Assembly: GCA_903824785.1 (NCBI GenBank)
Contig: CAIJYD010000069.1
Span: 1-64,000 of the forward strand
DNA from: an uncultured Bacteroidota bacterium
Lineage (GTDB): Bacteria; Bacteroidota; Bacteroidia; Bacteroidales; VadinHA17
Length of the DNA stretch: 64,000 bases
Direction: 5' to 3'
Shown: positions 156 to 17,281 of the stretch, piece after piece
How the letters are laid out: every line of letters begins with the position of its first letter
How positions within the stretch are numbered: the stretch's first letter is position 1
The notes under the pieces: model-generated
The model's database searches: none
Told to the model about the DNA's origin: nothing
The model's input: only the letters and a program-made list of their open reading frames with translations
Program-made: the position numbers and the translations under genes

Positions 156-1457
156 ATGGCAAGACTAAATTCGAAAAAACATGCAGCAGGTTTTCGACCC
201 GCATTTTTGATTCTTTGTTTTTTGTGGCTTATTTCTGCACAGACCGCTATGGCTCAGACGCAGACACAGACTATTGATATCTTGCTAAAGGGTGGTCATG
301 TAATTGATCCGAAAAATAAGATTGATTCAAAGATGGATGTTGCCATTACCGGTGGCAAAATATCACAGGTTGCTCCCGATATTTCTGCTAAAAATGTTAA
401 GAATGTAATTGATGCAACCGGTATGTTTATCTCCCCAGGGCTTATTGATATGCACGTTCATGCCTTTTACGGCACCGACCCTGTTTCCTATATTGCAAAT
501 GGATGGGATGCATTAGCCCCCGACGGATACACATTTCGTGCCGGAGTGACTACTGTTGTTGATGCCGGCTCTGCAGGATGGAGAAATTTCCGCGATTTCA
601 AAAAGCAGACAATCGACCGGTCGCAGACAAGAATTCTGGCATTTCTTAATATAGTCGGTGTCGGAATGTATGGACGATTTGAAGAACAGGATATTACCGA
701 TATGAATCCGCAGATGACGTCATATATGATTACACGTCTGTTCCCTGATGTAATTATTGGTGTTAAATCGGCACATTACTGGGGACCTGATTTTACTCAG
801 GTCGATCGTGCTGTTGAAGCCGGTAATCTGGCAAAGGTTCCCGTAATGGTTGATCTAGGCGAACATCATCCTCCGTTATCTATCGAGGAACTTTTCGCCA
901 AACATCTTCGTCCGGGCGATATCTGGACACATACATATGCCAATGGTCCTAAAGACCGTGAGGTTCCAGTTGATGATAATGGCAAGGTAAAACCATTTAT
1001 TTTTGAAGCTCAGAAAAAAGGGATAATTTTTGATGTCGGCCATGGTGGTGGTGCTTTTCACTGGAGCCAGGCTGTACCTTCAATACAACAGGGGTTTATA
1101 GCTGATGTAATAAGCTCCGACCTCCACACCGGGAGTATGAATAGCGGTATGAAGGATATGACCAACCTCATGTCGAAGTTCCTTGCAATGGGATTGTCTG
1201 TTCAGGATGTTATATTAAGAACAACCTGGAATCCGGCAAGTGTTATTAAAAGACCTGATCTTGGTAACCTAAGTGTAGGAACAGTAGCTGACGTGGCAGT
1301 TTTCAGCGTAAGGAAAGGCGATTTCGGATTTCTTGATGTGCGCGGGAAAAAGCTGAAAGGCACTCAAAAACTTGAAGCTGAACTTACTATCCGTGCCGGA
1401 AGGATTGTATGGAACCTGAACGGTCTCGGTTCGGCGATGTGGGACGCTAAGCCATAG
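156..1457 (+). CDS. Exported COG3964-type amidohydrolase (paralog 1)
   Basis: This is an amidohydrolase-superfamily metallohydrolase of the dihydroorotase-like COG3964 group, whose members are thought to deacylate small amides or esters. A Sec signal peptide (hydrophobic residues about 15-32, likely cut after AMA) puts it in the periplasm. The beta-1 HxH is H100/H102, the candidate carbamylated Lys is K205, a later His is H260, and the Asp in SSDLH is D323. At the place where I expect the beta-5 metal His (usual MVH) the protein has D234. A His at 208 follows K205 in the pattern KxxHY, which all four paralogs here share. It is first in a plus-strand group with a second amidohydrolase, RidA and a SelA-like PLP enzyme, with short gaps suggesting an operon. 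The fold is sure; the substrate is unknown. Confidence 0.9.
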   Translation: MARLNSKKHAAGFRPAFLILCFLWLISAQTAMAQTQTQTIDILLKGGHVIDPKNKIDSKMDVAITGGKISQVAPDISAKNVKNVIDATGMFISPGLIDMHVHAFYGTDPVSYIANGWDALAPDGYTFRAGVTTVVDAGSAGWRNFRDFKKQTIDRSQTRILAFLNIVGVGMYGRFEEQDITDMNPQMTSYMITRLFPDVIIGVKSAHYWGPDFTQVDRAVEAGNLAKVPVMVDLGEHHPPLSIEELFAKHLRPGDIWTHTYANGPKDREVPVDDNGKVKPFIFEAQKKGIIFDVGHGGGAFHWSQAVPSIQQGFIADVISSDLHTGSMNSGMKDMTNLMSKFLAMGLSVQDVILRTTWNPASVIKRPDLGNLSVGTVADVAVFSVRKGDFGFLDVRGKKLKGTQKLEAELTIRAGRIVWNLNGLGSAMWDAKP

Positions 1458-1530
1458 TGACCTCCGGAATGAATTTTAAACGAGTTAACCATTCAGAATA
1501 GTCTTTAAAATATTTCAAATTAAATTTATC

Positions 1531-2811
1531 ATGCAAAAAAATCATCCGTTTATCAGAAATCATGAAGGAAACATATTTCCCAGCTTCACAGCTGTTTTGA
1601 TTCTTGGTTTTTTCTTTCTGCTTTTTCCTGTTTATTCTCAGGCCCAGGAGATAGATATTTTATTGAAAGGTGGTCATCTTATCGACCCCAAAAATAAAAT
1701 TGATACCCAAATGGATGTGGCTATTACTAACGGGAAAATATTTAAAGTTGCAAAGGATATTCCTGTGACAAAAGCCAAAAAGGTTATTGATGCAGGCGGG
1801 ATGTATGTAACACCAGGCCTGATTGATCTTCATACTCATGTTTTTGTGGGAAGCAATCAGGGTTTTGCAGATGGTTTTTCATCCCTGTCTCCTGACGATA
1901 TTACATTCAAAGCCGGCATTACTACTGTTGTAGATGCCGGAACATCCGGATGGAGAAACTTTCCGCAATTTAAGAAACAGGTTATTGACAGGTCGCAGAC
2001 CCGCGTTCTGGCATTTCTGAACATTGCAGGATCAGGAATGACAGGGTTTCCTTCCGAAGAGGATATGAACGATATGGATTCCCGTATGACTTCTCTTGTT
2101 ATTCAGCAATTTCCTGAGGTTATTGTGGGGGTAAAGATCGGGCATTACCGCGGAGTTGAATGGACCCCTTTTGACCGTGCCCTTGAAGCTTGTAATATTG
2201 CAAATGTACCACTGTTTGTTGAGTGTCATCTGCCAAAGTATCCTCTGGAAGAGATTCTCAAAAGGATGCGTCCGGGAGACATTTATACGCACTCTTTCTG
2301 CACAGCCGTTGACAGGGCATGCGTTCTTGATGATCAGGGAATTCTGAGGCCATACGTGATTGACGCGCAGAAAAAAGGTGTCAGGTTTGATGTTGGCCAT
2401 GGAGGTATCATGTTTCACTATTCTGTAGCTGTCCCGGCCATGAAACAGGGGCTGTTACCCAATTCCTTTGGTACTGACCTGCATCGTTCAAGTATGAATT
2501 CAGGAATGAAGAATATGCTCGACCTTATGTCGAAATATTTGAATATGGGTATGAACATTGAAGATATAATATTCCGTGCTACCTGGAATTCGGCCAATTC
2601 AATAAAGCGTGATGATCTGGGTCAACTGAGCGAAGGTGCTGATGCCGACATAGCTGTTTTAAGTATCAGGAAAGGGAGCTTTGGTTTTATAGATGCAGGT
2701 GGTACTAAACTGACCGGAGACCGCCGGCTTGAAGCCGAACTGACCATTCGTGCAGGGAAAGTTGTCTGGGATATGAATGGAATAGCTGCAAAGAGTCAGT
2801 TTAACAAATAG
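1531..2811 (+). CDS. Exported COG3964-type amidohydrolase (paralog 2)
   Basis: This is a second amidohydrolase of the same family, 73 bases after the first and clearly its paralog along the whole length. It has a long N-terminal region with a hydrophobic core at about residues 18-36 ending in SQA, so it should be secreted by Sec. Metal-site residues visible are H101/H103 (HTH), K202, H254 and the Asp in GTDLH (316). The beta-5 position carries E231 instead of His, followed two residues later by H233, and the KxxHY motif is present (K202, H205). It is more diverged from paralog 1 than paralogs 3 and 4 are from each other, which suggests a different substrate rather than simple redundancy. The substrate is unknown. 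Confidence 0.9.
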   Translation: MQKNHPFIRNHEGNIFPSFTAVLILGFFFLLFPVYSQAQEIDILLKGGHLIDPKNKIDTQMDVAITNGKIFKVAKDIPVTKAKKVIDAGGMYVTPGLIDLHTHVFVGSNQGFADGFSSLSPDDITFKAGITTVVDAGTSGWRNFPQFKKQVIDRSQTRVLAFLNIAGSGMTGFPSEEDMNDMDSRMTSLVIQQFPEVIVGVKIGHYRGVEWTPFDRALEACNIANVPLFVECHLPKYPLEEILKRMRPGDIYTHSFCTAVDRACVLDDQGILRPYVIDAQKKGVRFDVGHGGIMFHYSVAVPAMKQGLLPNSFGTDLHRSSMNSGMKNMLDLMSKYLNMGMNIEDIIFRATWNSANSIKRDDLGQLSEGADADIAVLSIRKGSFGFIDAGGTKLTGDRRLEAELTIRAGKVVWDMNGIAAKSQFNK

Positions 2812-2842
2812 GCGATTCAAATTATTATTAATAAATCATGAT

Positions 2843-3304
2843 ATGAAATCTGAAAGAAGAACTGTACTGAAAAAGCTGTTTGCCTCAATAGCAGGGATAA
2901 CAGGATTGGGATTGACAGCAGGGGCAAGAACTGATTCATTTGCTGAAAAGGAAGTTTTTGGTGTTAAAAGTTATCAGGATATACCGATGTTCTCAACTTC
3001 CACTAAACTAGGGAATCTTGTATTTATTTCCGGAAGGGGAGCACGTCTTGAAGGGGATATCAAGGTACATACTGATAATGTCCTTAAAATAATGGAGACT
3101 GAACTTGTTAAAGCAGGATCTTCGATGGAGAAGGTGCTGAAGGTAACAGTTTACCTCGATAGCATGGACGATTACAAAGGGATGAATGAAGTCTATAAGG
3201 GCCGGTTCGGTAAAAATCCGCCAGTTAGGACAACAGTTGCCGTTTCAGGAGGGCTTCCACCAGCTGATGCCTATATTCAGATGGATTGCATTGGATATAT
3301 TTAG
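2843..3304 (+). CDS. RidA (YjgF/UK114) family protein with Tat-like signal
   Basis: RidA proteins hydrolyse reactive enamine/imine intermediates released by PLP enzymes, normally in the cytoplasm. The RidA domain fills residues about 40-153, and the conserved substrate-binding Arg is visible in the PPVRTTVAV segment. In front is an ERRTVLKKLF twin-arginine motif and a Gly/Ala-rich hydrophobic stretch, so the protein is probably exported folded by Tat. It lies 31 bases after an amidohydrolase and 47 before a SelA-like PLP enzyme. That order fits a role in clearing the imine product of the neighbouring enzyme, which is inference. Family assignment is firm; export is likely but predicted by eye. 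Confidence 0.9.
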   Translation: MKSERRTVLKKLFASIAGITGLGLTAGARTDSFAEKEVFGVKSYQDIPMFSTSTKLGNLVFISGRGARLEGDIKVHTDNVLKIMETELVKAGSSMEKVLKVTVYLDSMDDYKGMNEVYKGRFGKNPPVRTTVAVSGGLPPADAYIQMDCIGYI

Positions 3305-3351
3305 GTAGGAATAAGAATTAATTTTATAAATTATAATTTAAAAAAATCATT

Positions 3352-4962
3352 ATGGAACGCAGAGACATAATTAAAAGCTTGACAATCCTGCCATTTGCAG
3401 GAAGTTTACTTCCACTTGAGTCTATCATGGCTGGTCCAAAAGGTCCGCTGGTGACCGGGCCAAATATCTATCAGTCTATCGGTGTGGAGCCTGTAATAAA
3501 TTGCGTTGGTACATACACTATTATCGGAGGTTCACTTGAGCGTCCTGAAGTAGTGCAGGCAATGCACGATGCTTCCGGCTTTTTTGTTCAGTACGATGAG
3601 CTTGCTTTTGGTGTTGGCCAGAGACTGGCAAATATTACGGGAGCAGAATGGGGGATGGTATCAGCCGGCTGTGCTGCAGGAATGAAACATGTTACAGCAG
3701 CTTGTGTAACAGGTGGTAATCCGGAGAAACTTGTCCGTATCCCCGATCTGACAGGTTTTGAAAAGACCGAGGTCGTGATTCCAAGAAATGCCAGAAATGC
3801 ATATGACCATTCAATACGAAATATCGGGGTTAAGATTGTTACAGTTAACACTCCTGAAGAGCTTGGAAAAGCACTGAATTCAAGAACTGCCATGATCTAT
3901 TTGATGGCCAATAATGATCTGTTACCTGATCAGCCTTTTTCTCTGGAATCTGTTGCTGCCATGGCAAAACCTTTAAACATTCCGATACTTGTTGATGCTG
4001 CAGCTGAAGACCTTACCATACCAAACGTACATCTCCAGAGGGGAGCCACGATAGTTGCCTACAGTGGTGGAAAAGCTATTTGCGGTCCGCAGTGTGCAGG
4101 GTTATTAATTGGCAAAAAAGATATTCTTATGTCGGCATGGCAGGCGAGTTCACCACACCATGGTGCCGGCAGGGACAATAAGGTTGGCAAGGAGGAAATG
4201 TTAGGTATGCTTGCAGCGGTTGAAGCATGGGTAAAACGCGATCATGTTGAGAAAATGAATACATGGCACACCTACCTTGGGACTATTTCAAAACGTTTAT
4301 CAACAATAAGCGGAGTGAAAGCAGAAATTAGAGAGCCTCGCGGACTTTCAAACCATAGCCCATCTCTTGTTATAACCTGGGATGCTGAGAAATTAAATAT
4401 TACAGGTCAGGATGTAGCCGAGAATCTGGCTGTTAATAAGCCCAGAATTGCAGTTCACAGCAGTTACAAAGACGAAGCTGGGAACACCTCTATCACCATC
4501 TCATCGGGACAGATGCAGCCGGGAAATGACAAAGTAGTTGCCGACAGAATATTTGGTGTGCTTTCAGTATCTTATCCAAAGCCTAAGGAAATGACTCCCC
4601 CTGTTGCAAACATTGTTGGCCGCTGGGACGTTGATATTGAATTTTTCAGCAGCAAGAGTCAGCATACTTTCTTTGTTGAAGAGCAGGATGGTAACTGGAT
4701 TCAGGGCGCACATAAAGGTGATTTTACAACTCGCGACATGGCTGGCATTCTCGATGGAGATCAGATTAAGCTCAGCAGCGCAGAACGACAGATAGCTGAT
4801 AATGTTCCATTCCTGTTTTATGGTACCGTTGCTGGCGATAAGATGACAGGTCAGATCTATATGGGTGAATATATAACTGCTAAATTTACGGCAGCACGGC
4901 ATTCGCAGAAAGGCCCACGCAGATCCTTACGGGTACCCAAAGGCCAGCCACTATCAAGTTAA
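3352..4962 (+). CDS. Tat-exported SelA-like PLP enzyme with C-terminal beta domain
   Basis: This is a fold-type I PLP enzyme of the SelA/DgaE-like group (COG1921), whose known members include D-glucosaminate-6-phosphate ammonia-lyase. The PLP Lys is K241 in SGGK, followed by GPQCAG, and D215 in VDAAAE should contact the pyridine nitrogen. The N-terminus MERRDIIKSL plus a hydrophobic stretch reads as a twin-arginine signal. Residues about 420-516 form an extra Gly/Trp-rich beta domain (starts IVGRWDV, ends YITAKFTAAR) absent from the two short paralogs at 8639 and 13722 but present in the one at 41307. True selenocysteine synthase is ruled out by export and by the lack of Sec machinery here. 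It is last in the plus-strand group, before a terminator. The reaction is unknown. Confidence 0.88.
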   Translation: MERRDIIKSLTILPFAGSLLPLESIMAGPKGPLVTGPNIYQSIGVEPVINCVGTYTIIGGSLERPEVVQAMHDASGFFVQYDELAFGVGQRLANITGAEWGMVSAGCAAGMKHVTAACVTGGNPEKLVRIPDLTGFEKTEVVIPRNARNAYDHSIRNIGVKIVTVNTPEELGKALNSRTAMIYLMANNDLLPDQPFSLESVAAMAKPLNIPILVDAAAEDLTIPNVHLQRGATIVAYSGGKAICGPQCAGLLIGKKDILMSAWQASSPHHGAGRDNKVGKEEMLGMLAAVEAWVKRDHVEKMNTWHTYLGTISKRLSTISGVKAEIREPRGLSNHSPSLVITWDAEKLNITGQDVAENLAVNKPRIAVHSSYKDEAGNTSITISSGQMQPGNDKVVADRIFGVLSVSYPKPKEMTPPVANIVGRWDVDIEFFSSKSQHTFFVEEQDGNWIQGAHKGDFTTRDMAGILDGDQIKLSSAERQIADNVPFLFYGTVAGDKMTGQIYMGEYITAKFTAARHSQKGPRRSLRVPKGQPLSS

Positions 4963-4987
4963 TTTGGCCTTTAATATACTTATATCT

Positions 4988-5026
4988 TCCGGCACCGGAT
5001 CATGGCGATCAGGTGCCGGATTTTTT
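4988..5026 (+). terminator. Rho-independent terminator after the plus-strand group
   Basis: A 9-bp perfect stem, TCCGGCACC (4988-4996) with GGTGCCGGA (5012-5020), is followed at once by six T. It sits 25 bases after the SelA-like stop codon and closes the amidohydrolase/RidA/SelA-like group before the DUF362 pair. Confidence 0.85.
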
Positions 5027-5142
5027 ACATCTGCGCATCAGGCTGATTATCATTACGTTACTATGTTCATTCAACATTTGCTTGTAGTTTGAAATAAAAA
5101 AATATTTAACAAAAATTAAGTTTATCAAAAACATTCGGAGCA

Positions 5143-5303: not shown

Positions 5304-6905
5304 ATGAAAAGACGTGACTTTATCAGAGTTTCCTCTGTAGCAGGTATTGCAGGTCTTGTTGGACCAGGGTACAGTGCCATGGAAAATTCTTTTCCGGCAG
5401 GAGGAAAAGGGTTTGATCTTCACCCATTTATCAAAGAGCATCCTGAAGCAGTTTTTATAAACCTTACATCCGTAAAGGAAAAGACAGATGCCGTTGGCAT
5501 AAGTGCAGCAGCAGCCAAGCTGGCCAATGAGATGTTTGTTAAAACAAGCAGCAGAAAAGGGTATCCTTCCACCACAAAAATAAACTGCAAACCCAACTGG
5601 ACCAGCAGCGGTGTCGATAAAAATGACCCGACAGCCAACATGGGCATTACAACAGATAATAATTTTATTGAGGGATTTCTTAATTCTGTTAAAACCAAAG
5701 GACCAACGGATTTTTATCTGAGGGAATGTGCCTCACCGCGTTCATGGACCGCCAGAGGATATGCTCCAATGGCAGAAAGAAACAACTTTAATCTCAGAGA
5801 CCTCTCATCAAAGGATTACTGGGATCTGGGACCGGATGATCTGATTTTTAAGGATGTTACTAATGGAGTGGTATTTAAGAAGATAGCTTATATGGCTCCT
5901 ATGAACGGGCCAGATACGTTCCTAATTAACATGGCCAAATTCAAAGCCCACCAGATGGGAATTACCGGATGTTTAAAGAATCTTCAGGGAACCACTGCCA
6001 GAAAGTTTCACCAGTTTTGCGGTGGACATTTCGATATTTTTAAAACTTACGATAAGCGTTATCATGAGTTTTTTCAACCCGACTACATGGCCCGGATTAC
6101 TGAACTGCATAAAAAGCACCAGGAGGCAGGAATGCCGCGTTGGAACAGTGTTATGGAAAAGCCACCCTATGGAGGAGGTTTCTGGATGGAGCAGTGGGTT
6201 AACAGAACACTTGATAATGTGAGTACTATATCCCAGGGAATAAATATTGTTGAAGGTGTTTATGGTCGTGATGGTGACGGTTTTTCAGGCGGTCCTCATA
6301 ATGGCAAAGGAAAAGACTTCATGTCAAATAATGTTATATTTGGAAAAGATCCTTTCAGAGTTGATATTATAACTCACTGGCTGGCAGGACACGAACCGGG
6401 AAACTTCGGACTATTTCATATCGGGATAGAACGTGGTATGTCGAATGTTCTTAATCCGTTTGATATTCCTGTTTATCTATGGGAAGATGGAAAAGCAAAA
6501 CTGGTAAAACTTGACACTTTTAAAAGAACTCCTTTGCTGACACTCTATCTGAGAAAAAACAGTGATGGAATGAATGAGGACAGGTTTCATATGTGCGACG
6601 AACCTTTTGATTATTCTGCATGGAAAAGTGGTAAAATTGCAAAAAATGAACTCCCTTCTGTAAAAGCACTTGGAACAGATTCAAGCGACAATGTGGTTAT
6701 GGAAGTTTCAGTTCCTGAAAAGGGCGATGTTTTTATGGACATTCTTAATAAAGATGGTGAACTTGTCTGGCGCCTTCATGCCGATGGTCTTGAGCCGGGA
6801 AATCATCAGGTTGTATGGGATGGATTCAATCAGCCCGGACTATACAGCGTTTATGTAAAAGGAATGGGCTGGGATGCTGAGCAGGAGACGGTGATATATT
6901 CCTGA
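5304..6905 (+). CDS. Tat-exported DUF362 protein with FlgD-like C-terminus (copy 1)
   Basis: The central part resembles DUF362 proteins, seen in the KAHQMGITGCLKNLQG segment and the following long conserved region. MKRRDFIRVSS followed by an Ala/Gly-rich stretch is a twin-arginine signal. The last roughly 80 residues (from VVMEVSVPEKGD to the end) look like a FlgD/immunoglobulin-like module with the typical PGNHQVVWDG pattern, common at the C-terminus of secreted Bacteroidetes proteins. No CxxCxxC ferredoxin motif is seen, unlike many DUF362 members. A close paralog follows 33 bases later, so the two are probably cotranscribed. The biochemical role is unknown; its position between two amidohydrolase/SelA-like groups suggests a shared substrate. 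Confidence 0.75.
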   Translation: MKRRDFIRVSSVAGIAGLVGPGYSAMENSFPAGGKGFDLHPFIKEHPEAVFINLTSVKEKTDAVGISAAAAKLANEMFVKTSSRKGYPSTTKINCKPNWTSSGVDKNDPTANMGITTDNNFIEGFLNSVKTKGPTDFYLRECASPRSWTARGYAPMAERNNFNLRDLSSKDYWDLGPDDLIFKDVTNGVVFKKIAYMAPMNGPDTFLINMAKFKAHQMGITGCLKNLQGTTARKFHQFCGGHFDIFKTYDKRYHEFFQPDYMARITELHKKHQEAGMPRWNSVMEKPPYGGGFWMEQWVNRTLDNVSTISQGINIVEGVYGRDGDGFSGGPHNGKGKDFMSNNVIFGKDPFRVDIITHWLAGHEPGNFGLFHIGIERGMSNVLNPFDIPVYLWEDGKAKLVKLDTFKRTPLLTLYLRKNSDGMNEDRFHMCDEPFDYSAWKSGKIAKNELPSVKALGTDSSDNVVMEVSVPEKGDVFMDILNKDGELVWRLHADGLEPGNHQVVWDGFNQPGLYSVYVKGMGWDAEQETVIYS

Positions 6906-6938
6906 CCATTATTATTTTAAGGTTATTCAGAGTTGATA

Positions 6939-8540
6939 ATGAAAAGACGCGATTTTATTAAAGTTTCTTCTGCAGCCGGTATTGCAGGATTAGTGGGACC
7001 GGGATATAGTTCTATGGCTGATAATTATTCATCAGGCGTTGCAGGATTTGACCTACATCCCTTTATCAAAGAGCATCCGGAGGCAGTTTTTATAAATATT
7101 ACGGACGTTAAAGAAAAAACAGATGCAACCGGCATTCATGATGCTGCCTTCAAGCTGGCGAATGAGATGTTTGTTAAAACTTCCAACGGTAAAGGTTATT
7201 CCAATTCGACAAAAATAACATGTAAACCGAACTGGACCTGCAACTCGCCCGATAAAAAGGATCCAACGGCGAACCTGGGGATCACAACTGATAATAATTT
7301 TATTGAAGGATATCTTAAATCGGTAAGAACCAAAGGGCCCCAGGATTTTTACCTTAGGGAATGTGCCTGTTCTTTTCTTTGGCCTGCCAACGGATATACC
7401 CAGATGGCTGATCGAAATAATTTCAATCTAAGAGAACTGTCATCAAAGGATTACTGGAATATGAATCCTGATGATATTATTTTCAAGGAGGTTCCTAATG
7501 GAGTTGTTTTTAGGAAAGTAGCTTATATGGCTCCAATGAATGCCCCCGATACTTTCCTGATAAATATGGCTAAATTCAAGTCCCACCAGATGGGAATTAC
7601 AGCCTCAATAAAAAATCTGCAGGGAATAACCGCAAAAAGGTTTCACAATTTCTGTGCCGGGACTACTGATGTTTTTAAGACATTGGATAAGCGCTATCAT
7701 GAGTTTTTTCATTCAGACTACCTTGCAAAAATTGCAGAACTTCATAAGTTACATGTAGAAAAAGGAATTCCACGATGGAATAATGTTATGGACAGACCTC
7801 CGGATGGAGGAGGCTTCTGGATGGAGCAATGGGTTAACAGGACACTCGATAATGTAAGTGTTACTCCGACAGGAATAAATATTGTTGAGGGAATTTATGG
7901 CCGCGATGGCGATGGTTTCTCAAACGGATCTCATGGGGGAAAGCCACAGGATTTTATGTCGAATAATGTAATTTTTGGAATAGATCCTTTCAGAGTTGAT
8001 ATAATTACTCACTGGCTGGCAGGGCATGAACCGGGAAACTTTGGCCTGTTCCATATAGCAATTGAACGTGGCATGTCGAATGTTCTTGATCCATTCGATA
8101 TTCCTGTTTATCTCTGGAAAGATGGAAAAGCAAAACTCGTTAAACTGGATTCCCTTAAGCGGACTCCTCTTGTTACACTCTATCTGAGAACGAGTATTGA
8201 TGGATTGCTGGAGGATAAATATCATTTGTGTAACGAGCCATTTGATTACAGTAAATGGAAAACAGGAAAAATTTCTGCTAATACTCTTCCTTCAATTAAA
8301 GCACTTGGTACCGATTCAAAGGATCAGGTTGTTATGGAGGTCTCAGTTCCCGATAAAGGTGATGTATTTGTTGATATCATGAACAATAATGGTGAAGTGG
8401 TATGGCGGCTTCAGGCTGAAGGACTTGAACCGGGAAACCATCAGGTGGTGTGGGATGGATTTAACAAACCGGGAATGTACAGTGTTTATGTAAAAGGTAT
8501 GGGCTGGGATGCCGAACAGGAGACAGTTATTTATACCTGA
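6939..8540 (+). CDS. Tat-exported DUF362 protein with FlgD-like C-terminus (copy 2)
   Basis: This is a tandem paralog of the preceding gene, nearly colinear over 533 residues and very similar by eye. The ATG at 6939 (MKRRDFIKVSS) is preferred over the in-frame TTG at 6933 because it places the twin-arginine motif at the very start, as in copy 1. Differences cluster in a few patches, for example the Cys-rich RECACSFLW against RECASPRSW in copy 1, and TASIKNLQG against TGCLKNLQG. These patches may mark a substrate-facing surface. The gene ends at a hairpin shared with the convergent minus-strand group. Function is unknown. Confidence 0.75.
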   Translation: MKRRDFIKVSSAAGIAGLVGPGYSSMADNYSSGVAGFDLHPFIKEHPEAVFINITDVKEKTDATGIHDAAFKLANEMFVKTSNGKGYSNSTKITCKPNWTCNSPDKKDPTANLGITTDNNFIEGYLKSVRTKGPQDFYLRECACSFLWPANGYTQMADRNNFNLRELSSKDYWNMNPDDIIFKEVPNGVVFRKVAYMAPMNAPDTFLINMAKFKSHQMGITASIKNLQGITAKRFHNFCAGTTDVFKTLDKRYHEFFHSDYLAKIAELHKLHVEKGIPRWNNVMDRPPDGGGFWMEQWVNRTLDNVSVTPTGINIVEGIYGRDGDGFSNGSHGGKPQDFMSNNVIFGIDPFRVDIITHWLAGHEPGNFGLFHIAIERGMSNVLDPFDIPVYLWKDGKAKLVKLDSLKRTPLVTLYLRTSIDGLLEDKYHLCNEPFDYSKWKTGKISANTLPSIKALGTDSKDQVVMEVSVPDKGDVFVDIMNNNGEVVWRLQAEGLEPGNHQVVWDGFNKPGMYSVYVKGMGWDAEQETVIYT

Positions 8541-8568
8541 TTGAAACTGAATCATAAATTAAATAAGA

Positions 8569-8602
8569 AAAACCTCACAAATCCTGTGAGGTTTTCCTTT
8601 TT
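8569..8602. terminator. Bidirectional terminator between convergent groups
   Basis: An 11-bp stem pairs AAAACCTCACA (from 8569) with TGTGAGGTTTT (8585-8595) around a 5-base loop, with A-rich sequence on the left and T-rich on the right. It sits between the stop of the second DUF362 gene (8540) and the stop of the minus-strand SelA-like gene (8639), so it can end transcription from both sides. Confidence 0.8.
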
Positions 8603-9902: not shown

Positions 9903-11777
9903 TTATTTTTCATTCAGATCCCTGACAACCGGAAGAATAATCTGGCTCAGATTAGCTCCGCCATGATGAATGGTCTGTTTGGCGATGCGCGTCTTTGCAC
10001 TGCTTCCGAGCGGATCACCTGTATTTGGATTCCTGTCAAACTGAGGGAAATTACTTGAAGTAATATCTATCCGGATCCGATGTCCGGGCTTAAATACGTT
10101 TGCAGTACCTGTTAATTCAATTTCATATTCATACACCTGGTTTGGTGTAAGCAGCATCATTTTATCGAGTCCATTACGGAACCTGGCTCTGAGAATGCCT
10201 TCAGAAACAGGCATTGAATATCCATTTGGATAGACATCAATTAGTTTTATCATCCAGTCGGTGTCTGTACCATCGGTAGCAGCATGAAGCTTCATTTTAA
10301 CCGGACCGGCAATTGTAAGAGGTTTATCTAAAAATTCACTGGTGTAGACGAGAATATCTTCACGTCTTTCAAGCGGGCGCTGATCAGCAGGGCCGGGGCT
10401 TGTTGGTGTACCGCAACAGTTATTTCCACCTGTTGTGGGGACCGGATTTAGCGGATCGTAGGAATAAGTGTCATTACCGCTTTTCACGGGTTTTGTAAAT
10501 GATAGTGTTCCATCGCCGCGCACCGAATTTGCTGATCCGTTGCTGTTAAGGTATAATTCGCGATAGGTTGTACCCGGTACAGGCCAATCTAATTCACCTC
10601 GCCATTTGTTTTCACCCATATAAAACAGCTGAACCGGCTTATCCAGATCGAGCCCGTTTTTTATTCCTTTAAGATAGAAATCATAGAAGCGCACTTGAGT
10701 ATCAAACATATCAATAAATGCTACCGGAGTAAAGTCCACTCCTCCGAATGACTGTGTTGGTCCATGGCCCCAGGGTCCGATGATCATCCGGGCTCCGGCT
10801 TTGGCTTCAGGAGTTGCACCGTGATTCTTCATACCCACATAGCCGTTTATTGTTCCCATGATAAAGATGTCAAACCAACCGCCAAGGGTGTGAACAGGAA
10901 CGGCAACTTTATCAAAACGTTCCTCGTCACTTATAGCTTTCCAATAGTCATCGTAGCTCTCATGCTTAAGCCAGTCGCGGTAATGCTGTACAACAGATCC
11001 TTCATTTATTACATCTGCGTCTTTCAGTGGAAGGTGCAAAAGAATATTATCATATTTAAGGTTTTCCGGCATATAGTTCTCTGTATGCCAGAACTGAGGG
11101 AGCATAATGCGGTTTGGCATGCGAACAACTCCCCATCCATAATTGAAACTTAACCGGTAAGCGCCACCCATCGTAAGCCAGTTGGCGTAGATATTAGTAG
11201 AAGCAAGTGCAGGGAAAGCCGCGACAAGATGCGGAGGGTTAAGACTTGCAGCAGCCCATTGATTGTGACCAACATAACTACCGCCCTGAGTAGCAACTTT
11301 GCCATTTGAGAATGGCTGCACAGCTGCCCATTCAATTGTAGCGTATCCGTCTTTGGCTTCATCGCGAAAGGGTTCCCATTTTCCATCACTTTCGTAACGG
11401 CCACGAACATCCTGAACCACAACGGCATATCCATGCTGGGCAAATTTCAACATCATTTCATGTACTCCATCACGTTGAACTCCGTAGGGGGTACGGGTTA
11501 CAAGCGTAGGATACCTGCCGGTTTCGGCAGGAAGATATACGTCGGCATATAAAACCACACCGTCGGCCATTGTTACAGGCTTATGACGCTCAATGCGGAT
11601 ATCATTAATATTCGACTCAGATTCAGATACATCAGTAAATGAAAAGAAACTGGCCACCAGTATTAAAAAGCAAACTTTTATTGAATATTTCAGGAAAGCC
11701 TTACGCTTCTCTCCGGAAATATGGGAACCAGCCGGCATTTCCTGACGTCCGGTAAATGCATTATTTGAATGTTTCAT
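9903..11777 (-). CDS. CocE/NonD family alpha/beta hydrolase (S15-like), membrane-anchored or exported
   Basis: This belongs to the X-Pro dipeptidyl-peptidase/cocaine-esterase family (S15), which cleaves acyl esters or amides. It has an alpha/beta hydrolase domain with the nucleophile motif TQGGSYVGHNQ, the GGWFDIF segment expected near the catalytic Asp, the IIGPWGHGP segment with the catalytic His, and a C-terminal jelly-roll domain. A hydrophobic stretch, KVCFLILVASFFSF, about 35 residues in suggests a signal or anchor. I start at the ATG at 11777 because the upstream in-frame TTG (11792) is weaker; a later Met at 11738 is also possible. It lies between RidA and a SelA-like gene in the minus-strand group, where it could release an acyl or amino-acyl group from the substrate. 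Confidence 0.88.
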   Translation of the reverse strand: MKHSNNAFTGRQEMPAGSHISGEKRKAFLKYSIKVCFLILVASFFSFTDVSESESNINDIRIERHKPVTMADGVVLYADVYLPAETGRYPTLVTRTPYGVQRDGVHEMMLKFAQHGYAVVVQDVRGRYESDGKWEPFRDEAKDGYATIEWAAVQPFSNGKVATQGGSYVGHNQWAAASLNPPHLVAAFPALASTNIYANWLTMGGAYRLSFNYGWGVVRMPNRIMLPQFWHTENYMPENLKYDNILLHLPLKDADVINEGSVVQHYRDWLKHESYDDYWKAISDEERFDKVAVPVHTLGGWFDIFIMGTINGYVGMKNHGATPEAKAGARMIIGPWGHGPTQSFGGVDFTPVAFIDMFDTQVRFYDFYLKGIKNGLDLDKPVQLFYMGENKWRGELDWPVPGTTYRELYLNSNGSANSVRGDGTLSFTKPVKSGNDTYSYDPLNPVPTTGGNNCCGTPTSPGPADQRPLERREDILVYTSEFLDKPLTIAGPVKMKLHAATDGTDTDWMIKLIDVYPNGYSMPVSEGILRARFRNGLDKMMLLTPNQVYEYEIELTGTANVFKPGHRIRIDITSSNFPQFDRNPNTGDPLGSSAKTRIAKQTIHHGGANLSQIILPVVRDLNEK

Positions 11778-11846
11778 TTTCAAGCAGTTCAATAAGTTAA
11801 AAATTTCTTATAAAATTGGTGACCAGTTTTGTCAGTATCAGTAAGG

Positions 11847-12311
11847 TTAAATATATGCTATGCAATCCATTTCAACCAGAGAATCGCCAGGTACACCACC
11901 TTTTGCAACTGCTATGGTGGAACGTACAGGAGGAGTCATACCAAATCGGCCTTTGTAAACTTCATTCATACCTTTGTAATCTGCTATATCATTAAGATAA
12001 ACAGTTACTTTAAGTACTTTCTCCATTGATGAGCCTGCTTTTACGAGTTCTTTTTCAAGTTCTTTAAGAACTATTTCAGTATGAGCTGCAATGGTGAAAG
12101 GAGCAACATGAGCGCCTTTTCCGGCAATGAACACAAGGTTTCCAAGTTTGGTTGCACCGGAAAATAATGGAGCATCCTGAAAATTGGTTACATTCATTGC
12201 TTCCTTCTCATCTGATGACAAGCCTTTTGCATTTGCTGCCAGTCCAACTCCGGTAACACCTACCATGGTGGCAAACATCCTTTTAATCATAGATCTTCTT
12301 TCTGTTTTCAT
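11847..12311 (-). CDS. RidA (YjgF/UK114) family protein with Tat-like signal (second copy)
   Basis: This is a second RidA-family protein with the same layout as the one at 2843: an ERRSMIKRMF twin-arginine motif, a short hydrophobic stretch, and a RidA domain from about residue 40. The conserved Arg is in PPVRSTIAV and the acidic residue near the end in VEMDCIAYI. It sits between an amidohydrolase (80 bases upstream on its strand) and the CocE-type hydrolase (69 bases downstream). Two exported RidA copies, one per group of PLP enzymes, suggest that an imine or enamine is produced outside the cytoplasm. That link is inference. Confidence 0.9.
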   Translation of the reverse strand: MKTERRSMIKRMFATMVGVTGVGLAANAKGLSSDEKEAMNVTNFQDAPLFSGATKLGNLVFIAGKGAHVAPFTIAAHTEIVLKELEKELVKAGSSMEKVLKVTVYLNDIADYKGMNEVYKGRFGMTPPVRSTIAVAKGGVPGDSLVEMDCIAYI

Positions 12312-12391: not shown

Positions 12392-13636
12392 CTATTTTTT
12401 GTATTCCTTGGCAGCAAGCCCGTTTAAATCCCATACAACTTTTCCTGCGCGGATTGTAAGTTCAGCAACCAGCTTCTGTTTACCGTACATTTTTACTCCG
12501 CTGATGTCGAGGAATCCAAAATTCCCGTTACTCATGCTGAATACTGCCACATCAGCTTCTGTACCTACACTTAAATTTCCAAGTTCCGGTCTGTGAATGA
12601 TCTGAGCAGGATTCCAGGTAGAACGGAATATAACATCCTGAACAGTCAGTCCCATGCAAAGAAACTTAGACATAAGGTTAGCCATGTCCTTCATTGCGCC
12701 GTTCATGCTCCCGGTATGCAGATCGGAGCTGATAGCATCGGCAACAAATCCCTGCTGAATTGCCGGAATGGCCTGATTCCATCTGAATGACCCACCACCA
12801 TGACCAACATCAAAAATAATGCCTCTTTTTCTTGCTTCGAGAATGAATGGCTTTACTTTGCCGTTTTCATCAACGGGAGCTTCCCTTGAATCAGGAAAAT
12901 AGGCATATACATGGGAAAAGATATCTCCTGGACGGAGGTGTTTCATAAACAGTTCCTCGATGGAGAGTGGGGGAGTGCTTTGGCCAAAATCTACCATAAC
13001 AGGAAGATTTGACAACACACCTGCTTTTGCTGCACTGTCTGTAGGAGCCCATTCGTGCCCGCCATAATGTGCCAGTTTTATACCGACGATTTCATTCGGA
13101 TAATCTTTTGCAACTCTGGCAGTTCTGCGGGGATCCATGTCTTTTGTTGTCTGCTCAAAAGGACCTCCTCTCATACCTTCTCCTGCTATATTAAGAAAAG
13201 CAAGGATTCTTGTCTGCGAGTTGTCGATAATCTTCGTTTTGAATTCCGGAAATGTTCGCCAGCCGGCACTACCGACATCAACTAAAGTTGTAACGCCGGC
13301 ACGAAATGAAAAGGCGTCAGCTGATACAGAGCTCATGCCATCCATTAAAGCCTGCCCGTTTTTTGTTCCATAGTAAACGTGAACATGCATATCAATTATG
13401 CCGGGTGTAACGTACATTCCAGCAGCATTAACAACCGTTTTACCCTCTTTTTCATCAATGTTTTTTGCTATCAGGGCAATCTTGCCTTCTTTGATCCCAA
13501 GATCCATAACAGCATCGATCTTGTTCTTAGGGTCAATAATATGGCCGCCCTTTATAACGATACTGTAGGTCTGAGCCATCCCTAAACCTGAAATCAGGAA
13601 TAGTATTAAGAGTATTAAAAGTGGTTTTTTTCTCAT
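12392..13636 (-). CDS. Exported COG3964-type amidohydrolase (paralog 3)
   Basis: This is an amidohydrolase with a short classical Sec signal (MRKKPLLILLILFLISG, cut near MAQ). Metal-site residues are H84/H86 (HVH), K187, the His in IFSHVYAYF, and the Asp in SSDLHTGSMN. The expected beta-5 His is D216 (PVMVDFG), and H190 follows K187 in the shared KxxHY pattern. The phrase SIEELFMKHLRPGDI near the fifth strand is close to that of paralog 1, so these two may share substrate preference. It lies between a SelA-like gene and RidA in the minus-strand group. Confidence 0.9.
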   Translation of the reverse strand: MRKKPLLILLILFLISGLGMAQTYSIVIKGGHIIDPKNKIDAVMDLGIKEGKIALIAKNIDEKEGKTVVNAAGMYVTPGIIDMHVHVYYGTKNGQALMDGMSSVSADAFSFRAGVTTLVDVGSAGWRTFPEFKTKIIDNSQTRILAFLNIAGEGMRGGPFEQTTKDMDPRRTARVAKDYPNEIVGIKLAHYGGHEWAPTDSAAKAGVLSNLPVMVDFGQSTPPLSIEELFMKHLRPGDIFSHVYAYFPDSREAPVDENGKVKPFILEARKRGIIFDVGHGGGSFRWNQAIPAIQQGFVADAISSDLHTGSMNGAMKDMANLMSKFLCMGLTVQDVIFRSTWNPAQIIHRPELGNLSVGTEADVAVFSMSNGNFGFLDISGVKMYGKQKLVAELTIRAGKVVWDLNGLAAKEYKK

Positions 13637-13721
13637 TGTATAGTTATTTATTAATCGTAATTAACCTTTGTTAAAAAATTAACAACTAAATACTTCAGTA
13701 ACCCAAAGTTAATGAACTTTA

Positions 13722-14945
13722 TTAAACTGCAGCCTTGCTCAGTTCTTCAAATATCCTGCCAGCCACTATTTTTTCCTGACCCGGCTTCAGCATCCATACA
13801 GTAATGGTAACACTGTTATCTTTTCCACCCATCATTTCAATGGAAGGATTGCCCTTGCTGAGTTTTTCCTGAAAGTCTCTGCGTTTAATATTAACTTTAG
13901 CTATATCCCATGAAATTGTAAGGGTAGGAGTACGGTTTGCCACAGGAGGTACTGTAACAGTAGTGGTAACTCCATTTACTTTTTTAGCTGCATTTTCAAT
14001 AACGGCAACACGGTCTTCCCATATCTTCCACTCTTTAGCCTGATCCATATTTATAAAATGCTCAATGGCTACATACATGCCGAGAATCTCCTCCTTGTTT
14101 ACTTTCATTCCGCGGCCAATATTACCACCACGAGGAGGCGCATTTAGCCTGGCTGCAGCAATAAGTTCTTTTTTGCCCATAAGTATTCCTGCACTTTGTG
14201 GACCACGGAGGCCTTTACCACCAGATACACAGACAAGATCAAAGCCCATATCATTGAATTTAGATAGATTTTCCACTGGTGTTGAGTCAGCTGCCATATC
14301 GATCATAGTGGGGACATTGTATTTCTTGCCAAGTGCAACCCATTCTTTATCTTGTATTTGACCATTAGGGCCGGCATAATTCAGAAACCACATTATTGCA
14401 GTTTTTTCATTAACGGCTTTAGCAACATCTTCAACAGTTTCAACTACAACAATTGTGACACCTGTATTGGTAAGAGCGTGAACATATCCCTCGTTATGGG
14501 CTTTTTGTACAATTGCCTCTGATTTCATTCCTGTAAGATTTGGCAGTTGTCCTACTTTTTTCATATCCATACCGGTAAGGGCTCCTGCCATACCAAGTAC
14601 TGAAGCCGACCAGCATCCGGCAGTCACCGTAGCTGCTTCAGCGTGGCAAAGGGCAGCAATTTTTGCACCTACTTTGTCCTGTACTTCATCAATGAAAGCA
14701 AATTCTTTAGCTGAAGCATTGATCGTTTCAACAACTTCATCACGCATTAAGCAGCCTGACATGGCAGTATATGTGCCGGCGGCATTGATGAATGTGCGAA
14801 TGCCGAGCTCGCTGAACAGATCACGTTTTGCAGGAGCTGGAGCAGCAGGGGCAGAAAGTACAGAGCCAAACGGAACAACACTTCCTAAAATTACACCTGA
14901 TACAGGCAGAATGGACAAGTTTTTAATTACATCTCTACGTTTCAT
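13722..14945 (-). CDS. Tat-exported SelA-like PLP enzyme, short form
   Basis: This is a 407-residue SelA/DgaE-like PLP enzyme. The Schiff-base Lys is K244 (VSGGKGLRGPQSAG) and the cofactor Asp is D216 (MIDMAAD). MKRRDVIKNL and a hydrophobic run form a twin-arginine signal, followed by an Ala/Pro-rich linker. Relative to the short paralog at 8639 the active-site frame is kept, but residues around 105-115 differ (TAGCWSASVLG against TSGAAGALVLG), which suggests a changed substrate pocket. It is flanked on both sides by amidohydrolase genes of the same strand (85 and 98 bases away). No function is proven. Confidence 0.88.
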   Translation of the reverse strand: MKRRDVIKNLSILPVSGVILGSVVPFGSVLSAPAAPAPAKRDLFSELGIRTFINAAGTYTAMSGCLMRDEVVETINASAKEFAFIDEVQDKVGAKIAALCHAEAATVTAGCWSASVLGMAGALTGMDMKKVGQLPNLTGMKSEAIVQKAHNEGYVHALTNTGVTIVVVETVEDVAKAVNEKTAIMWFLNYAGPNGQIQDKEWVALGKKYNVPTMIDMAADSTPVENLSKFNDMGFDLVCVSGGKGLRGPQSAGILMGKKELIAAARLNAPPRGGNIGRGMKVNKEEILGMYVAIEHFINMDQAKEWKIWEDRVAVIENAAKKVNGVTTTVTVPPVANRTPTLTISWDIAKVNIKRRDFQEKLSKGNPSIEMMGGKDNSVTITVWMLKPGQEKIVAGRIFEELSKAAV

Positions 14946-15043
14946 TTCAGTTATTTATTATTGTTATTATTATTTGAATATTAGTTTCTTATTACTTTTT
15001 CAGACTCAGAAACATATTGGTTTGTCTTTCCTGAAGATAAACC

Positions 15044-16306
15044 TTAGTTGCCTCTTCTGCGTGTAATAAAGATAGGATTGGCAATACCATTTAGGTCATA
15101 AACAATTCTTCCGGCTCTGATTGTCATTTCGCATTCAAGCTTTTTATCAGCATCAAGTTTTTTACCGGTATAATCGAATAAACCAAACTTGCCACTTCTG
15201 AGGTTAAGTATTGCAATGTCAGCTTCTGAACCTACAGAAAGAGTACCTAGCTCTTCGCGTTTAATTATCTGAGCAGGTTGCCATGTGCTGGCTTTGATTA
15301 CACTTTGGAGATCCATTCCCATTGCCAGAAATTTAGACATTGTTGTAAGCATATCTTTCATTGCACCGTTCATACTGCCGATATGCAGGTCGGTACTGAT
15401 TGCACTTGGAAGCAACCCGCTTTTTACAGCAGGAATTGCTTGTGAATAAGCGAAACTGATGCCACCATACCCAACATCGAAAATAACACCTTTCTTCTGG
15501 GCAACCCATACATACGGTTTGACTTTGCTGGTAACCGGATCAACAAGACATTCCCTGCTTGCGCCAAGCTGGCCAAAACAATGGGTGAAAATATCACCGG
15601 GACGGAAGATCTGACTGAATAATGTGTCGAGTGAGAGAGCAGGATTAGCTCCACCTAAATCTACCATAAATGGAATATTAGCCAGTGTAGCTGCCTCTTC
15701 AGCAAGTTTAACCGGATTCCAGTCGCGGCCACTATAATGAGCCAGTTTTATACCTACAATGTCATTCGCGTTTTTCTTTGCATATTCAGCAGTTATTTTA
15801 GGTTCCATGTCTTTCTGATTCTGTTCAAATGGACCTCCTCTCATACCTTCTCCAACAATATTCAGAAATGCAAGGACTCTTGTCTGTGATTTGTCGATTG
15901 TCTGTTTTTTGAAATCCGGAAATGTTCTCCATCCGGCACATCCTGCATCAACAACTGTGGTAACACCTACCCGAAAAGTAAATCCGTCGGGGGTGATTGA
16001 GCTGAGACCATTCATATACTGCTGATCAATATTAGTTCCCTGATATACATGAACATGAATATCAATTAGGCCGGGTGTAACATACAATCCCTGCGCAGAT
16101 ACAACCTGAACACCCTCTTTTGCATCAATGTTTTCTGCAATAAGGGCTATCTTGCCATCTTTAACAGCAATATCCATTACTTTATCGATATTGTTTTTAG
16201 GGTCAATTATATGTCCCCCTTTAATCACAATACTGTAGGTTTGTGCTTTGATCAGACCAGTCATTAAAAAGCAAATTAAAAACAGCGACAGATAAATTTT
16301 TCTCAT
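15044..16306 (-). CDS. Exported COG3964-type amidohydrolase (paralog 4)
   Basis: This is an amidohydrolase with a Sec signal (MRKIYLSLFLICFLMTG, cut near IKAQ). Residues of the metal site are HVH in GLIDIHVH, K187, the His in IFTHCFGQ, and the Asp in ISTDLHIGSMN. D216 (FMVDLG) replaces the usual beta-5 His, and H190 completes KxxHY. It is closest to paralog 3 in its N-terminal half. It follows the SMP-30 gene by 63 bases and precedes a SelA-like gene by 98 bases on the same strand. The substrate is unknown. Confidence 0.9.
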   Translation of the reverse strand: MRKIYLSLFLICFLMTGLIKAQTYSIVIKGGHIIDPKNNIDKVMDIAVKDGKIALIAENIDAKEGVQVVSAQGLYVTPGLIDIHVHVYQGTNIDQQYMNGLSSITPDGFTFRVGVTTVVDAGCAGWRTFPDFKKQTIDKSQTRVLAFLNIVGEGMRGGPFEQNQKDMEPKITAEYAKKNANDIVGIKLAHYSGRDWNPVKLAEEAATLANIPFMVDLGGANPALSLDTLFSQIFRPGDIFTHCFGQLGASRECLVDPVTSKVKPYVWVAQKKGVIFDVGYGGISFAYSQAIPAVKSGLLPSAISTDLHIGSMNGAMKDMLTTMSKFLAMGMDLQSVIKASTWQPAQIIKREELGTLSVGSEADIAILNLRSGKFGLFDYTGKKLDADKKLECEMTIRAGRIVYDLNGIANPIFITRRRGN

Positions 16307-16369
16307 AGGTTAGGGTTTTAGTAAAAATAAATATTTAAATATCAGATTTATAAGCTTTTCTATAGGGTA

Positions 16370-17281
16370 TTAATGTTTTGCTTTTCTTTGCATTTTCCAT
16401 TCTCTTCCCGGAATATCAGTACGGAACCACTCGAGGTTACCCTGATCCTGAAGTGTTACATAAACAGTGCAGCCATCTTTTCCACCAAATGCAACATTTG
16501 TAGGTCTTTTCCCTGTTAACTGAACCTCGCGTATTAGTTTTCCTTCAGGAGAAACTACTGCTACCACTCCTCTGCCAAACCTGGCTATATTGAGATTCCC
16601 TTTAATATCACACCTCATTCCATCCATCCCACCGTCAGTAAATTCGATCAGCAGCCGTTTGTTGCTGATATCACCGGCAGGTGAGAGATCGTACGCAAAT
16701 AACTTTCGGGATGAATTCACATATAAAATATTTTCTTCCGGATTGAGGTCAATTCCATTTACCGTTCCCATGCTGTCGAGCAGGGTGGTTGATGCATCAG
16801 TATCAATTCGCCAGATTTTTCCTGTTCCGGCTTTCCAGTTAGGATCGCTGGCGTAGATACGGTCTTTACTGTCGATAGCAATATCATTTGGCTGACTCAT
16901 TCGGGATTCATGCGCAAAAACAGTAATCTTTTTGGTAGCCATATCGACCTTTAAGATATTATGTTGTGTATAATCAGCAATAAGCATATTTCCTTTACTG
17001 TCAAAGCGAATACCATTTCCGATACTTCCTTCTGGCAATTCAATAAATAGAGCTGTATCACCATTAGGCGAAATCTGACCTATTGTGCCCTGCCGAACAA
17101 AATTGACATAATAAACGACCCCTTTTTTACTGACGCCGGGCCCTTCAACTCCGACAGTGGAACTGTGAGTAGGTGTCAATATTGATGATTTAAACAATTC
17201 AGGAGGGGAAGTTTTCTGAGAAAAAGCAGTCAGGGATATGCCTGCGAAAAGAAATGTAACGGATAAATTGGAAAATGACAT
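16370..17281 (-). CDS. Exported SMP-30/gluconolactonase-like beta-propeller
   Basis: This is an SMP-30/LRE-family six-bladed propeller of about 303 residues; family members hydrolyse sugar lactones using a bound divalent metal. Repeated blades are visible (GNGIRFDSKGNMLIADY, NDIAIDSKDRIYASDPN, NGIDLNPEENILYVNSS). I use the ATG at 17281, which begins a normal Sec signal (MSFSNLSVTFLFAGIS, cut near AFSQ), rather than an upstream start that adds 38 residues of non-signal sequence. It is the first gene of the minus-strand group. A lactonase in front of deacylases and an ammonia-lyase-like enzyme would fit sugar-acid catabolism, which is inference. Confidence 0.82.
   Translation of the reverse strand: MSFSNLSVTFLFAGISLTAFSQKTSPPELFKSSILTPTHSSTVGVEGPGVSKKGVVYYVNFVRQGTIGQISPNGDTALFIELPEGSIGNGIRFDSKGNMLIADYTQHNILKVDMATKKITVFAHESRMSQPNDIAIDSKDRIYASDPNWKAGTGKIWRIDTDASTTLLDSMGTVNGIDLNPEENILYVNSSRKLFAYDLSPAGDISNKRLLIEFTDGGMDGMRCDIKGNLNIARFGRGVVAVVSPEGKLIREVQLTGKRPTNVAFGGKDGCTVYVTLQDQGNLEWFRTDIPGREWKMQRKAKH

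Follow-up and report, generated by a model that had tools for sequence, protein, structure and literature searches.

The window analysed here, namely the opening 64 kb of contig C69 (93,290 bases) in the 4.69 Mb draft genome of an uncultured Bacteroidales bacterium, carries a cluster of 13 genes for COG3964 amidohydrolases (AH), RidA proteins, SelA/DgaE-like enzymes (Sel) dependent on pyridoxal 5'-phosphate (PLP) and a few accompanying proteins (Table 1). The genes form two convergent groups; those on the plus strand (156-8540) are ordered AH1-AH2-RidA1-Sel1-DUF362-DUF362, and those on the minus strand (8639-17281) are, from 5' to 3', SMP30-AH4-Sel3-AH3-RidA2-CocE-Sel2. The window starts at the first base of the contig, and the left border of the cluster is hence cut off.

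Table 1. Features of the cluster and of the separate locus with a fourth SelA-like protein; Sec and Tat denote the general and the twin-arginine export routes.
Feature	Position	Strand	Evidence and remarks
AH1, Sec-type COG3964 amidohydrolase/deacetylase	156..1457	+	NF006689 439.7 bits; HxH, Lys, His, Asp positions kept
AH2, Sec-type COG3964 amidohydrolase/deacetylase	1531..2811	+	NF006689 426 bits
RidA1, RidA/YjgF, Tat-type start	2843..3304	+	PF01042 61.1 bits; PPVR motif; 48 bp to Sel1
Sel1, long-form SelA/DgaE-like PLP enzyme, Tat-type start	3352..4962	+	TIGR01437 161.6 bits; model pLDDT 89.6; Foldseek Cap15 and DGL
DUF362 protein 1, Tat-type start	5304..6905	+	PF04015 53.4 bits
DUF362 protein 2, Tat-type start	6933..8540	+	PF04015 53.7 bits; ATG at 6939 likely start
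Stem-loop separating the two groups, resembling a terminator on either strand	8565..8599	.	16 pairs on -, 11 on +
Sel2, short-form SelA/DgaE-like PLP enzyme, Tat-type start	8639..9883	-	PF03841 50.9 bits, TIGR01437 210.2 bits
CocE/NonD-type hydrolase, Sec-like start	9903..11792	-	TIGR00976 464.5 bits; start codon uncertain
RidA2, RidA/YjgF, Tat-type start	11847..12311	-	PF01042 70.6 bits; CocE separates RidA2 from Sel2
AH3, Sec-type COG3964 amidohydrolase/deacetylase	12392..13636	-	NF006689 435.2 bits
Sel3, short-form SelA/DgaE-like PLP enzyme, Tat-type start	13722..14945	-	TIGR01437 140.5 bits, PF03841 34.8 bits
AH4, Sec-type COG3964 amidohydrolase/deacetylase	15044..16306	-	NF006689 447.1 bits
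SMP-30/gluconolactonase-like protein, Sec-like start from ATG 17281	16370..17281	-	PF08450 132.8 bits; reading frame opens at 17395 (TTG)
FAD oxidoreductase beside fourth SelA-like protein	38331-40316	-	
PIG-L deacetylase beside fourth SelA-like protein, RR start	40282-41259	-	
Fourth Tat-type SelA-like protein, separate SusC/SusD locus	41307..43028	-	NF047797 and TIGR01437 scored like Sel1-3

Protein families and export-type starts

All four amidohydrolases exceed the NF006689 cut-off of 371 bits, and AH2 to AH4 are 51-61% identical to AH1. In a search of the genome, four full-length COG3964 proteins were found, all of them inside the cluster, and two of the six RidA-family genes in the 4.69 Mb are located there as well; the clustering is therefore beyond chance. 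In the alignment of amidohydrolases, furthermore, H100, H102, H259 and D322 were present in 165/165 proteins and K204 in 146/165, including all four of the window; we take the HxH motif, the later His and the Asp to be residues of the amidohydrolase site. Enzymes of cog3964 hydrolyse N-acetyl-D-serine weakly and acetyl-(R)-mandelate strongly; no openly licensed paper was found under the names of these enzymes. We also noticed that Lys204 is replaced by Arg in 18/165 and by Cys in 1/165, and His324 by Tyr in 18 of the amidohydrolases; these variants possibly represent a non-classical sub-group.

RidA1 and RidA2 both score above the PF01042 cut-off (27.3 bits), and RidA1 is below that of the narrow TIGR00004 subfamily (58.6 vs 106.25 bits). 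The PPVR motif with its conserved Arg, presumably the catalytic residue of RidA, occurs in at least 90% of the 15 RidA proteins compared. As for the SelA-like enzymes, Sel2 and Sel3, which are 35-36% identical to Sel1, pass the PF03841 cut-off of 22.8 bits, whereas Sel1 stays below it (16.6 bits). None of the window's four SelA-like proteins reaches the cut-off of TIGR01437 (140.5-210.2 vs 385.3 bits) or that of NF047797, the profile of DgaE (D-glucosaminate-6-P ammonia lyase; 106.8-146.6 vs 600 bits). With the structure model of Sel1, the top Foldseek match was Cap15 (8t7j, E 1.5e-27), followed by DGL (7lc0, E 2.3e-27; TM-score by target, 0.87), and residues about 423-516 of the model form an extra C-terminal all-beta domain typical of the long-form SelA-like proteins. 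A stretch like this domain was matched alone, at 44.7 bits, in one genome of the phylum sample described below (G076). In a tree of 43 rows (support 100/99; rooted for drawing only and with some long branches), the exported SelA-like proteins grouped together with support and were distinct from DGL, Cap15 and the rhizobial and haloarchaeal members; the short and long forms were separate clades, and Cap15 grouped with DGL.

Export signals were judged by a heuristic of our own and by reading the protein starts, without SignalP. A lenient Tat rule, i.e., RR plus an uncharged stretch, was satisfied by 74/76 complete SelA-like proteins, 15/15 RidA and 11/11 DUF362 proteins, those of the window included; it also accepted 11/165 amidohydrolases and 60/543 other open reading frames of at least 200 amino acids in the loci. 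A stricter rule on hydrophobicity accepted only 41/76 SelA-like, 14/15 RidA and 5/11 DUF362 proteins. The amidohydrolases had a hydrophobic start in 156/165 cases, vs 359/563 background reading frames, and a cleavage-like motif before Gln in 146/165, vs 147/563. According to excerpts of an earlier report (PMC5837995), Bacteroidetes commonly have Gln behind the cleavage site, and TatC is encoded in the genome. Judged from their starts, the RidA, SelA-like and DUF362 proteins are predicted to be of Tat type and the amidohydrolases of Sec type. The profile matches and the starts bear out a first-pass annotation of this DNA, which had described four COG3964 amidohydrolases, two RidA proteins, three SelA-like enzymes, a DUF362 pair, a CocE-type hydrolase and an SMP-30 lactonase in two opposed groups and had seen signals on nearly all of them; for the signals, this holds within the reach of the heuristic.

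Conservation and linkage in other genomes

We compared 78 named loci, the top-ranked of 557 or more relatives when ordered by similarity to the amidohydrolases of the window. Many are on short contigs, and the counts are not independent (L006 and L150, both on contigs of 390790 bases, are probably one contig); neighbours were counted up to 10 kb away from the matched gene, each family being named from one member. A SelA-like gene was found in 56/78 loci and in 30 of the 43 loci that have 5 kb or more of sequence on each side; eight of the 13 well-flanked loci without it belong to Dyadobacter. Another amidohydrolase was present in 55/78 loci, and the further neighbours were GSDH/cytochrome c (35), SusC (16), RraA-like proteins (15), SBF transporters (12), DUF362 (7), SMP-30 (6) and CocE (2). 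Exported RidA proteins, which are of two kinds, were found in only 18/78 loci (11/43 well-flanked), and RidA as a constant third member was hence rejected.

Eleven of the 15 RidA genes of the window's type lie no more than 71 bp from a same-strand SelA-like gene; the other four are separated from it by 494 bp, 1.4 kb (RidA2 of the window, with CocE in between) or 2.8 kb, or have no SelA-like gene on their contig piece. Also, a second exported Rid kind (PF14588) is within 115 bp of a SelA-like gene in 8/12 cases, and the SelA-like gene is flanked by both kinds in four loci. An exported RidA of either kind occurs in 10/14 loci with the short-form SelA-like protein vs 7/38 loci with the long form only. 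One cultured species with both a SelA-like protein and RidA is Flavihumibacter profundi (L016).

The co-occurrence across genomes that the first-pass annotation anticipated thus stands for the amidohydrolase and the SelA-like enzyme, but RidA joins them less regularly. A lack of conserved co-occurrence and starts of cytoplasmic type had been named there as findings that would speak against an exported system; neither was seen, the starts being judged by the heuristic. The idea of an extracytoplasmic version with RidA agrees with the export-type starts, but the triad itself is not specific to export, as plasmids of Salipiger, Phyllobacterium and Aminobacter carry COG3964, RidA and SelA-like proteins with no visible signal beside ABC transporters.

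L070, a Bacteroidales bin and the nearest relative detected, repeats the window's gene order minus CocE, one DUF362 gene and one amidohydrolase gene, and shares the neighbouring Rnf-type operon. Strong amidohydrolase matches were present in 6/25 genomes of the same genus, our genome included, and a single partial match at a contig edge was found among 16 other genomes. Three of the five further carriers in the genus show a shorter convergent version on a single contig, in which AH-AH-long SelA-like-DUF362 is opposed by short SelA-like-RidA-AH, with one RidA and no CocE; in the remaining two, the genes are split over contigs. In a sample of 80 genomes of the phylum, our own included, a strong SelA-like match was found in our genome only. 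Some SelA-like match (E 0.001 or better) was obtained in 65/80, with at most 44.7 bits outside our genome, and phylum-wide ubiquity was rejected; the distribution is patchy.

Two minor observations concern the loci themselves. In L151, from the same genus, the short-form SelA-like protein reads in two frames at about 10.1-11.2 kb. Just beyond the amidohydrolase end of the cluster, an RR-start protein is encoded in L149 (2343-3218), L150 (2747-3622) and L153 (8999-9868), that of L150 being a xylose-isomerase-like TIM barrel; the contig of the window ends before the equivalent place.

Candidate substrates and proposed pathway

The settings of SelA-like genes elsewhere bear on the substrate. Fifteen plasmid neighbourhoods were chosen for spread from 233 matching records, and RidA was annotated nearby in 8/15 and COG3964 in 7/15, the gene tables of PLSDB being incomplete. 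In Priestia, Bartonella and Klebsiella, COG3964, DgaE and KDGP aldolase are consecutive; the Priestia operon adds a sugar kinase and a gluconate symporter, and that of Klebsiella a lactonase. Among haloarchaeal plasmids, PIG-L, a SelA-like protein, Rid and glucose 1-dehydrogenase occur together in 3/6 neighbourhoods, one of them with a lactonase. A Granulicella plasmid encodes in a row an outer-membrane barrel protein and, on one strand, RraA, a short SelA-like protein, RidA, a long SelA-like protein, COG3964, a lactonase, a BBE-type FAD protein and GH35; both SelA forms, RidA and the lactonase have RR-type starts, and COG3964 and RraA hydrophobic ones. Because of these three kinds of setting, 2-amino-2-deoxy sugar acids are pointed to. 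In the plasmid regions of Thermomicrobium and Mesorhizobium, which were reached via the amidohydrolase, neither RidA nor a SelA-like protein is annotated.

Our genome has further Tat-type SelA-like proteins in sugar-related surroundings. On contig C51 (L094 17570-18790, L095 194-10270), one occurs with UxuA-like, RraA-like and Gfo/Idh/MocA proteins, an aldo-keto reductase, SusC/D and a sugar transporter, and a RidA without visible signal is about 9 kb off; on contig C87 (L128 856-13782), another is near an RR-start MR/MLE (enolase-superfamily) protein, an MFS transporter, an arabinose isomerase and an FGGY sugar kinase. When PIG-L, BBE, UxuA and MR/MLE proteins were searched in the 78 loci, none was found in any of them, and the links to these families therefore rest on our genome and the plasmid records.

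The active site of the SelA-like proteins was compared with that of DGL in the numbering of chain 7lc0, in which lysine 217 of the corresponding paper falls at 213. The PLP-binding Lys is kept in 79/79 aligned proteins. At position 163, the proton donor of DGL, His was found in 4/79 and in none of the window's four; the phosphate-site residues Arg301, Arg332 and Arg346 are Arg in 5, 3 and 0 of 79, respectively, the alignment being gappy near 332. Of 17 SelA-like proteins encoded on named plasmids, only those of Priestia, Bartonella and Klebsiella, in the operons with KDGP aldolase, have the complete Arg triad. This pattern would fit phosphorylated substrates in those operons and unphosphorylated ones in the exported SelA-like proteins. 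In excerpts of the report on DGL (PMC9529869), the enzyme losing His163 is described as releasing its enamine in free form, RidA being named there as the type of protein by which enamines of this sort are removed. A rule that a missing His163 goes with a RidA was rejected; there are exceptions both ways and many SelA-like loci without RidA.

On balance, we lean towards the view that the enzymes of the cluster break down N-acetylated 2-amino-2-deoxy sugar acids by a pathway outside the cytoplasm, in the periplasm or at the surface. The most likely substrate would be N-acetyl-D-glucosaminate or a close isomer, and the products would be acetate, ammonia and a 2-keto-3-deoxy sugar acid. In such a pathway, an amino sugar would be oxidised at C1 elsewhere and the SMP-30 protein would open the lactone; a COG3964 amidohydrolase would then take off the acetyl group to give a free 2-amino-3-hydroxy sugar acid, from which the SelA/DgaE-like enzyme, which would be exported by Tat folded and loaded with PLP, would eliminate the C3 hydroxyl and release an enamine/imine. 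The Tat-exported RidA would hydrolyse this intermediate to ammonia and the 2-keto-3-deoxy sugar acid, and the keto acid would be taken up or, in relatives having one, split by an exported RraA-like protein. Deacylation, PLP-dependent elimination and imine hydrolysis, the order put forward in the first-pass annotation, is plausible for these families. Of the substrates named there, N-acyl compounds survive, with amino-sugar acids best supported and N-acyl-D-amino acids as a rival; hydantoin-like compounds were dropped, the matches being at superfamily level and far below cut-off. The export-type starts, the gene linkage and the residue changes are observed, and from them we infer the substrates, the reactions and the division of labour among four amidohydrolases and three PLP enzymes. 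The multiple copies would perhaps act on stereoisomers, or the short and long forms on separate tasks.

Several points weigh against this pathway. GSDH, the one C1 oxidase searched for across our genome, gave no match, and the Granulicella BBE protein, which is proposed as the oxidase, lacks a visible signal at its start. In the remaining 3/6 haloarchaeal neighbourhoods, neither Rid nor glucose dehydrogenase was found, and most SelA-like loci among the 78 are without RidA. Concerning the residues, the fourth SelA-like protein of the window has a His aligned to 162, a His is present somewhere in the 163 loop in 10/79 proteins (the alignment there is uncertain), and the residue at the position of Arg226 differs between proteins (Lys in 24, Arg in 16, Asn in 15 and Asp in 14 of 79). 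In R. etli, Salipiger, Phyllobacterium and Aminobacter, the SelA-like proteins have retained the His pair although RidA is encoded alongside, and four plasmid loci lack both the His pair and RidA. Finally, the Alphaproteobacterial triads with ABC transporters hint at amino acids, particularly in Phyllobacterium with its threonine/glycine enzymes.

This last point belongs to a different reading, in which the same three steps would scavenge N-acyl-D-amino acids with a 3-hydroxyl (D-serine or D-threonine type, e.g., from peptidoglycan or modified peptides) outside the cell. An IclR regulator is present in 2/3 of these triads and glycine C-acetyltransferase with threonine dehydrogenase in one, R. 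etli has RidA and a SelA-like protein in the vicinity of an amino acid permease gene and an asparaginase gene, and a carbon-nitrogen hydrolase family occurs in 11 loci, mostly those of Dyadobacter without a SelA-like protein. The weak hydrolysis of N-acetyl-D-serine by cog3964 enzymes would suit this reading as well. Among the neighbour families that were identified, however, several are related to sugars, lactones or SusC, and the peptidase-like ones are an M19 dipeptidase (7/78 loci) and a family with the beta-lactamase fold (6 loci); we regard amino acid scavenging as rather unlikely. It is less probable still that the cluster is a co-regulated collection of parallel exported toolkits, each amidohydrolase/SelA pair serving an unrelated substrate class. 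The divergence of AH2-4 from AH1 and of Sel2-3 from Sel1, the separate clades of short and long forms and the position of the other SelA-like proteins of our genome away from COG3964 would suit it, but in Granulicella both forms stand in one row with an amidohydrolase and RidA, and the layout recurs in the genus. That the SelA-like proteins are oxygen- and PLP-dependent oxidases like Cap15, with RidA clearing the imine from oxidation, is very improbable, for although Cap15 is the best Foldseek match of Sel1, the score of DGL is practically equal, the tree places Cap15 with DGL and the exported proteins apart from both, and the Rnf-type operon adjoining the cluster here and in L070 would fit low-oxygen life.

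The exported amino-sugar-acid pathway that we favour has parts in common with known systems. According to excerpts of the report on the ong pathway of Pseudoalteromonas prydzensis (PMC9537276), a deacetylase, a PLP deaminase and RidA are encoded in one cluster there as well and act on an unphosphorylated N-acetyl-2-amino-2-deoxy sugar acid, the same substrate type as is proposed here, giving 2-keto-3-deoxygluconate; the RidA protein OngD is essential for the use of N-acetylglucosaminate, with its role described as unknown. The ong enzymes are, however, predicted to be cytoplasmic, and OngB is of D-aminoacylase type and OngC a fold-type III PLP enzyme, whereas our cluster has COG3964 and fold-type I SelA-like proteins with export-type starts. 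DgaE/DGL shares the fold and the PLP lysine, and DgaE-type genes adjoin COG3964 in Klebsiella, Bartonella and Priestia; DgaE/DGL differs in having no signal seen, a phosphorylated substrate, His163 and Arg301/332/346, and in those three loci no RidA is annotated within about 5 kb. The Alphaproteobacterial clusters hold the same three families close together but have ABC uptake, no signal seen, the His pair and two of the three Arg. Haloarchaeal clusters of SelA-like, Rid and glucose dehydrogenase-type proteins with chitinases are described in excerpts of PMC12343721; the SelA-like proteins in haloarchaeal clusters also lack the His pair and the Arg triad and occur with Rid, a sugar dehydrogenase and a deacetylase, but no signal was seen for SelA-like and Rid proteins of the two examined, and PIG-L replaces COG3964.

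Among the openly licensed papers listed by our searches, we found no description of an exported system in which RidA accompanies a Tat-type lyase, and no relevant paper on an exported or twin-arginine RidA. Of the listed papers mentioning two of the three families (SelA-like, amidohydrolase, RidA), the ong report is by title the only pertinent one. Since the families of the triad and a cytoplasmic N-acetylglucosaminate route with RidA are already known, the exported version seems to be the new part. We would suggest, quite tentatively, that in at least two phyla (Bacteroidota and Acidobacteriota) the deacetylase/PLP lyase/RidA pathway acting on amino-sugar acids has been relocated out of the cytoplasm; its exported lyase would have lost the proton-donor His and would pass a free enamine to the co-exported RidA, keeping the reactive intermediate and ammonia out of the cytoplasm. 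If this is true, RidA would be the dedicated partner of an enamine-releasing lyase, a testable role that may explain why OngD is essential, and PLP-dependent amino-sugar catabolism would be placed outside the inner membrane. A substrate class would also be offered for many genes annotated only as amidohydrolase/deacetylase, class-V aminotransferase or RidA.

Other features of the window

The accompanying proteins are assigned by scores well over the respective cut-offs: 24 bits of PF04015 for the DUF362 proteins, 66.3 bits of TIGR00976 for CocE and 26.3 bits of PF08450 for SMP-30. The two DUF362 proteins share 77% identity, and protein 1 has a weak C-terminal FlgD-Ig-like match under cut-off; a DUF362 structure model (pLDDT 53.3) was too poor for use. 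Terminator-like sites in the region numbered 17 vs 15.3 in shuffled sequences, and the stem-loop between the groups is a match to the consensus only; a promoter scan gave no clear excess either (54 sites vs 45.1 in shuffles, standard deviation 8.5). To the right of the cluster is an Rnf/Nqr-type operon, in which an RnfD-type protein was confirmed and the rest was assigned by eye. Further along, the stretch at 37301-50190 encodes a sigma factor, FecR, SusC, SusD, the fourth SelA-like protein, PIG-L, the FAD oxidoreductase and a metallophosphatase.

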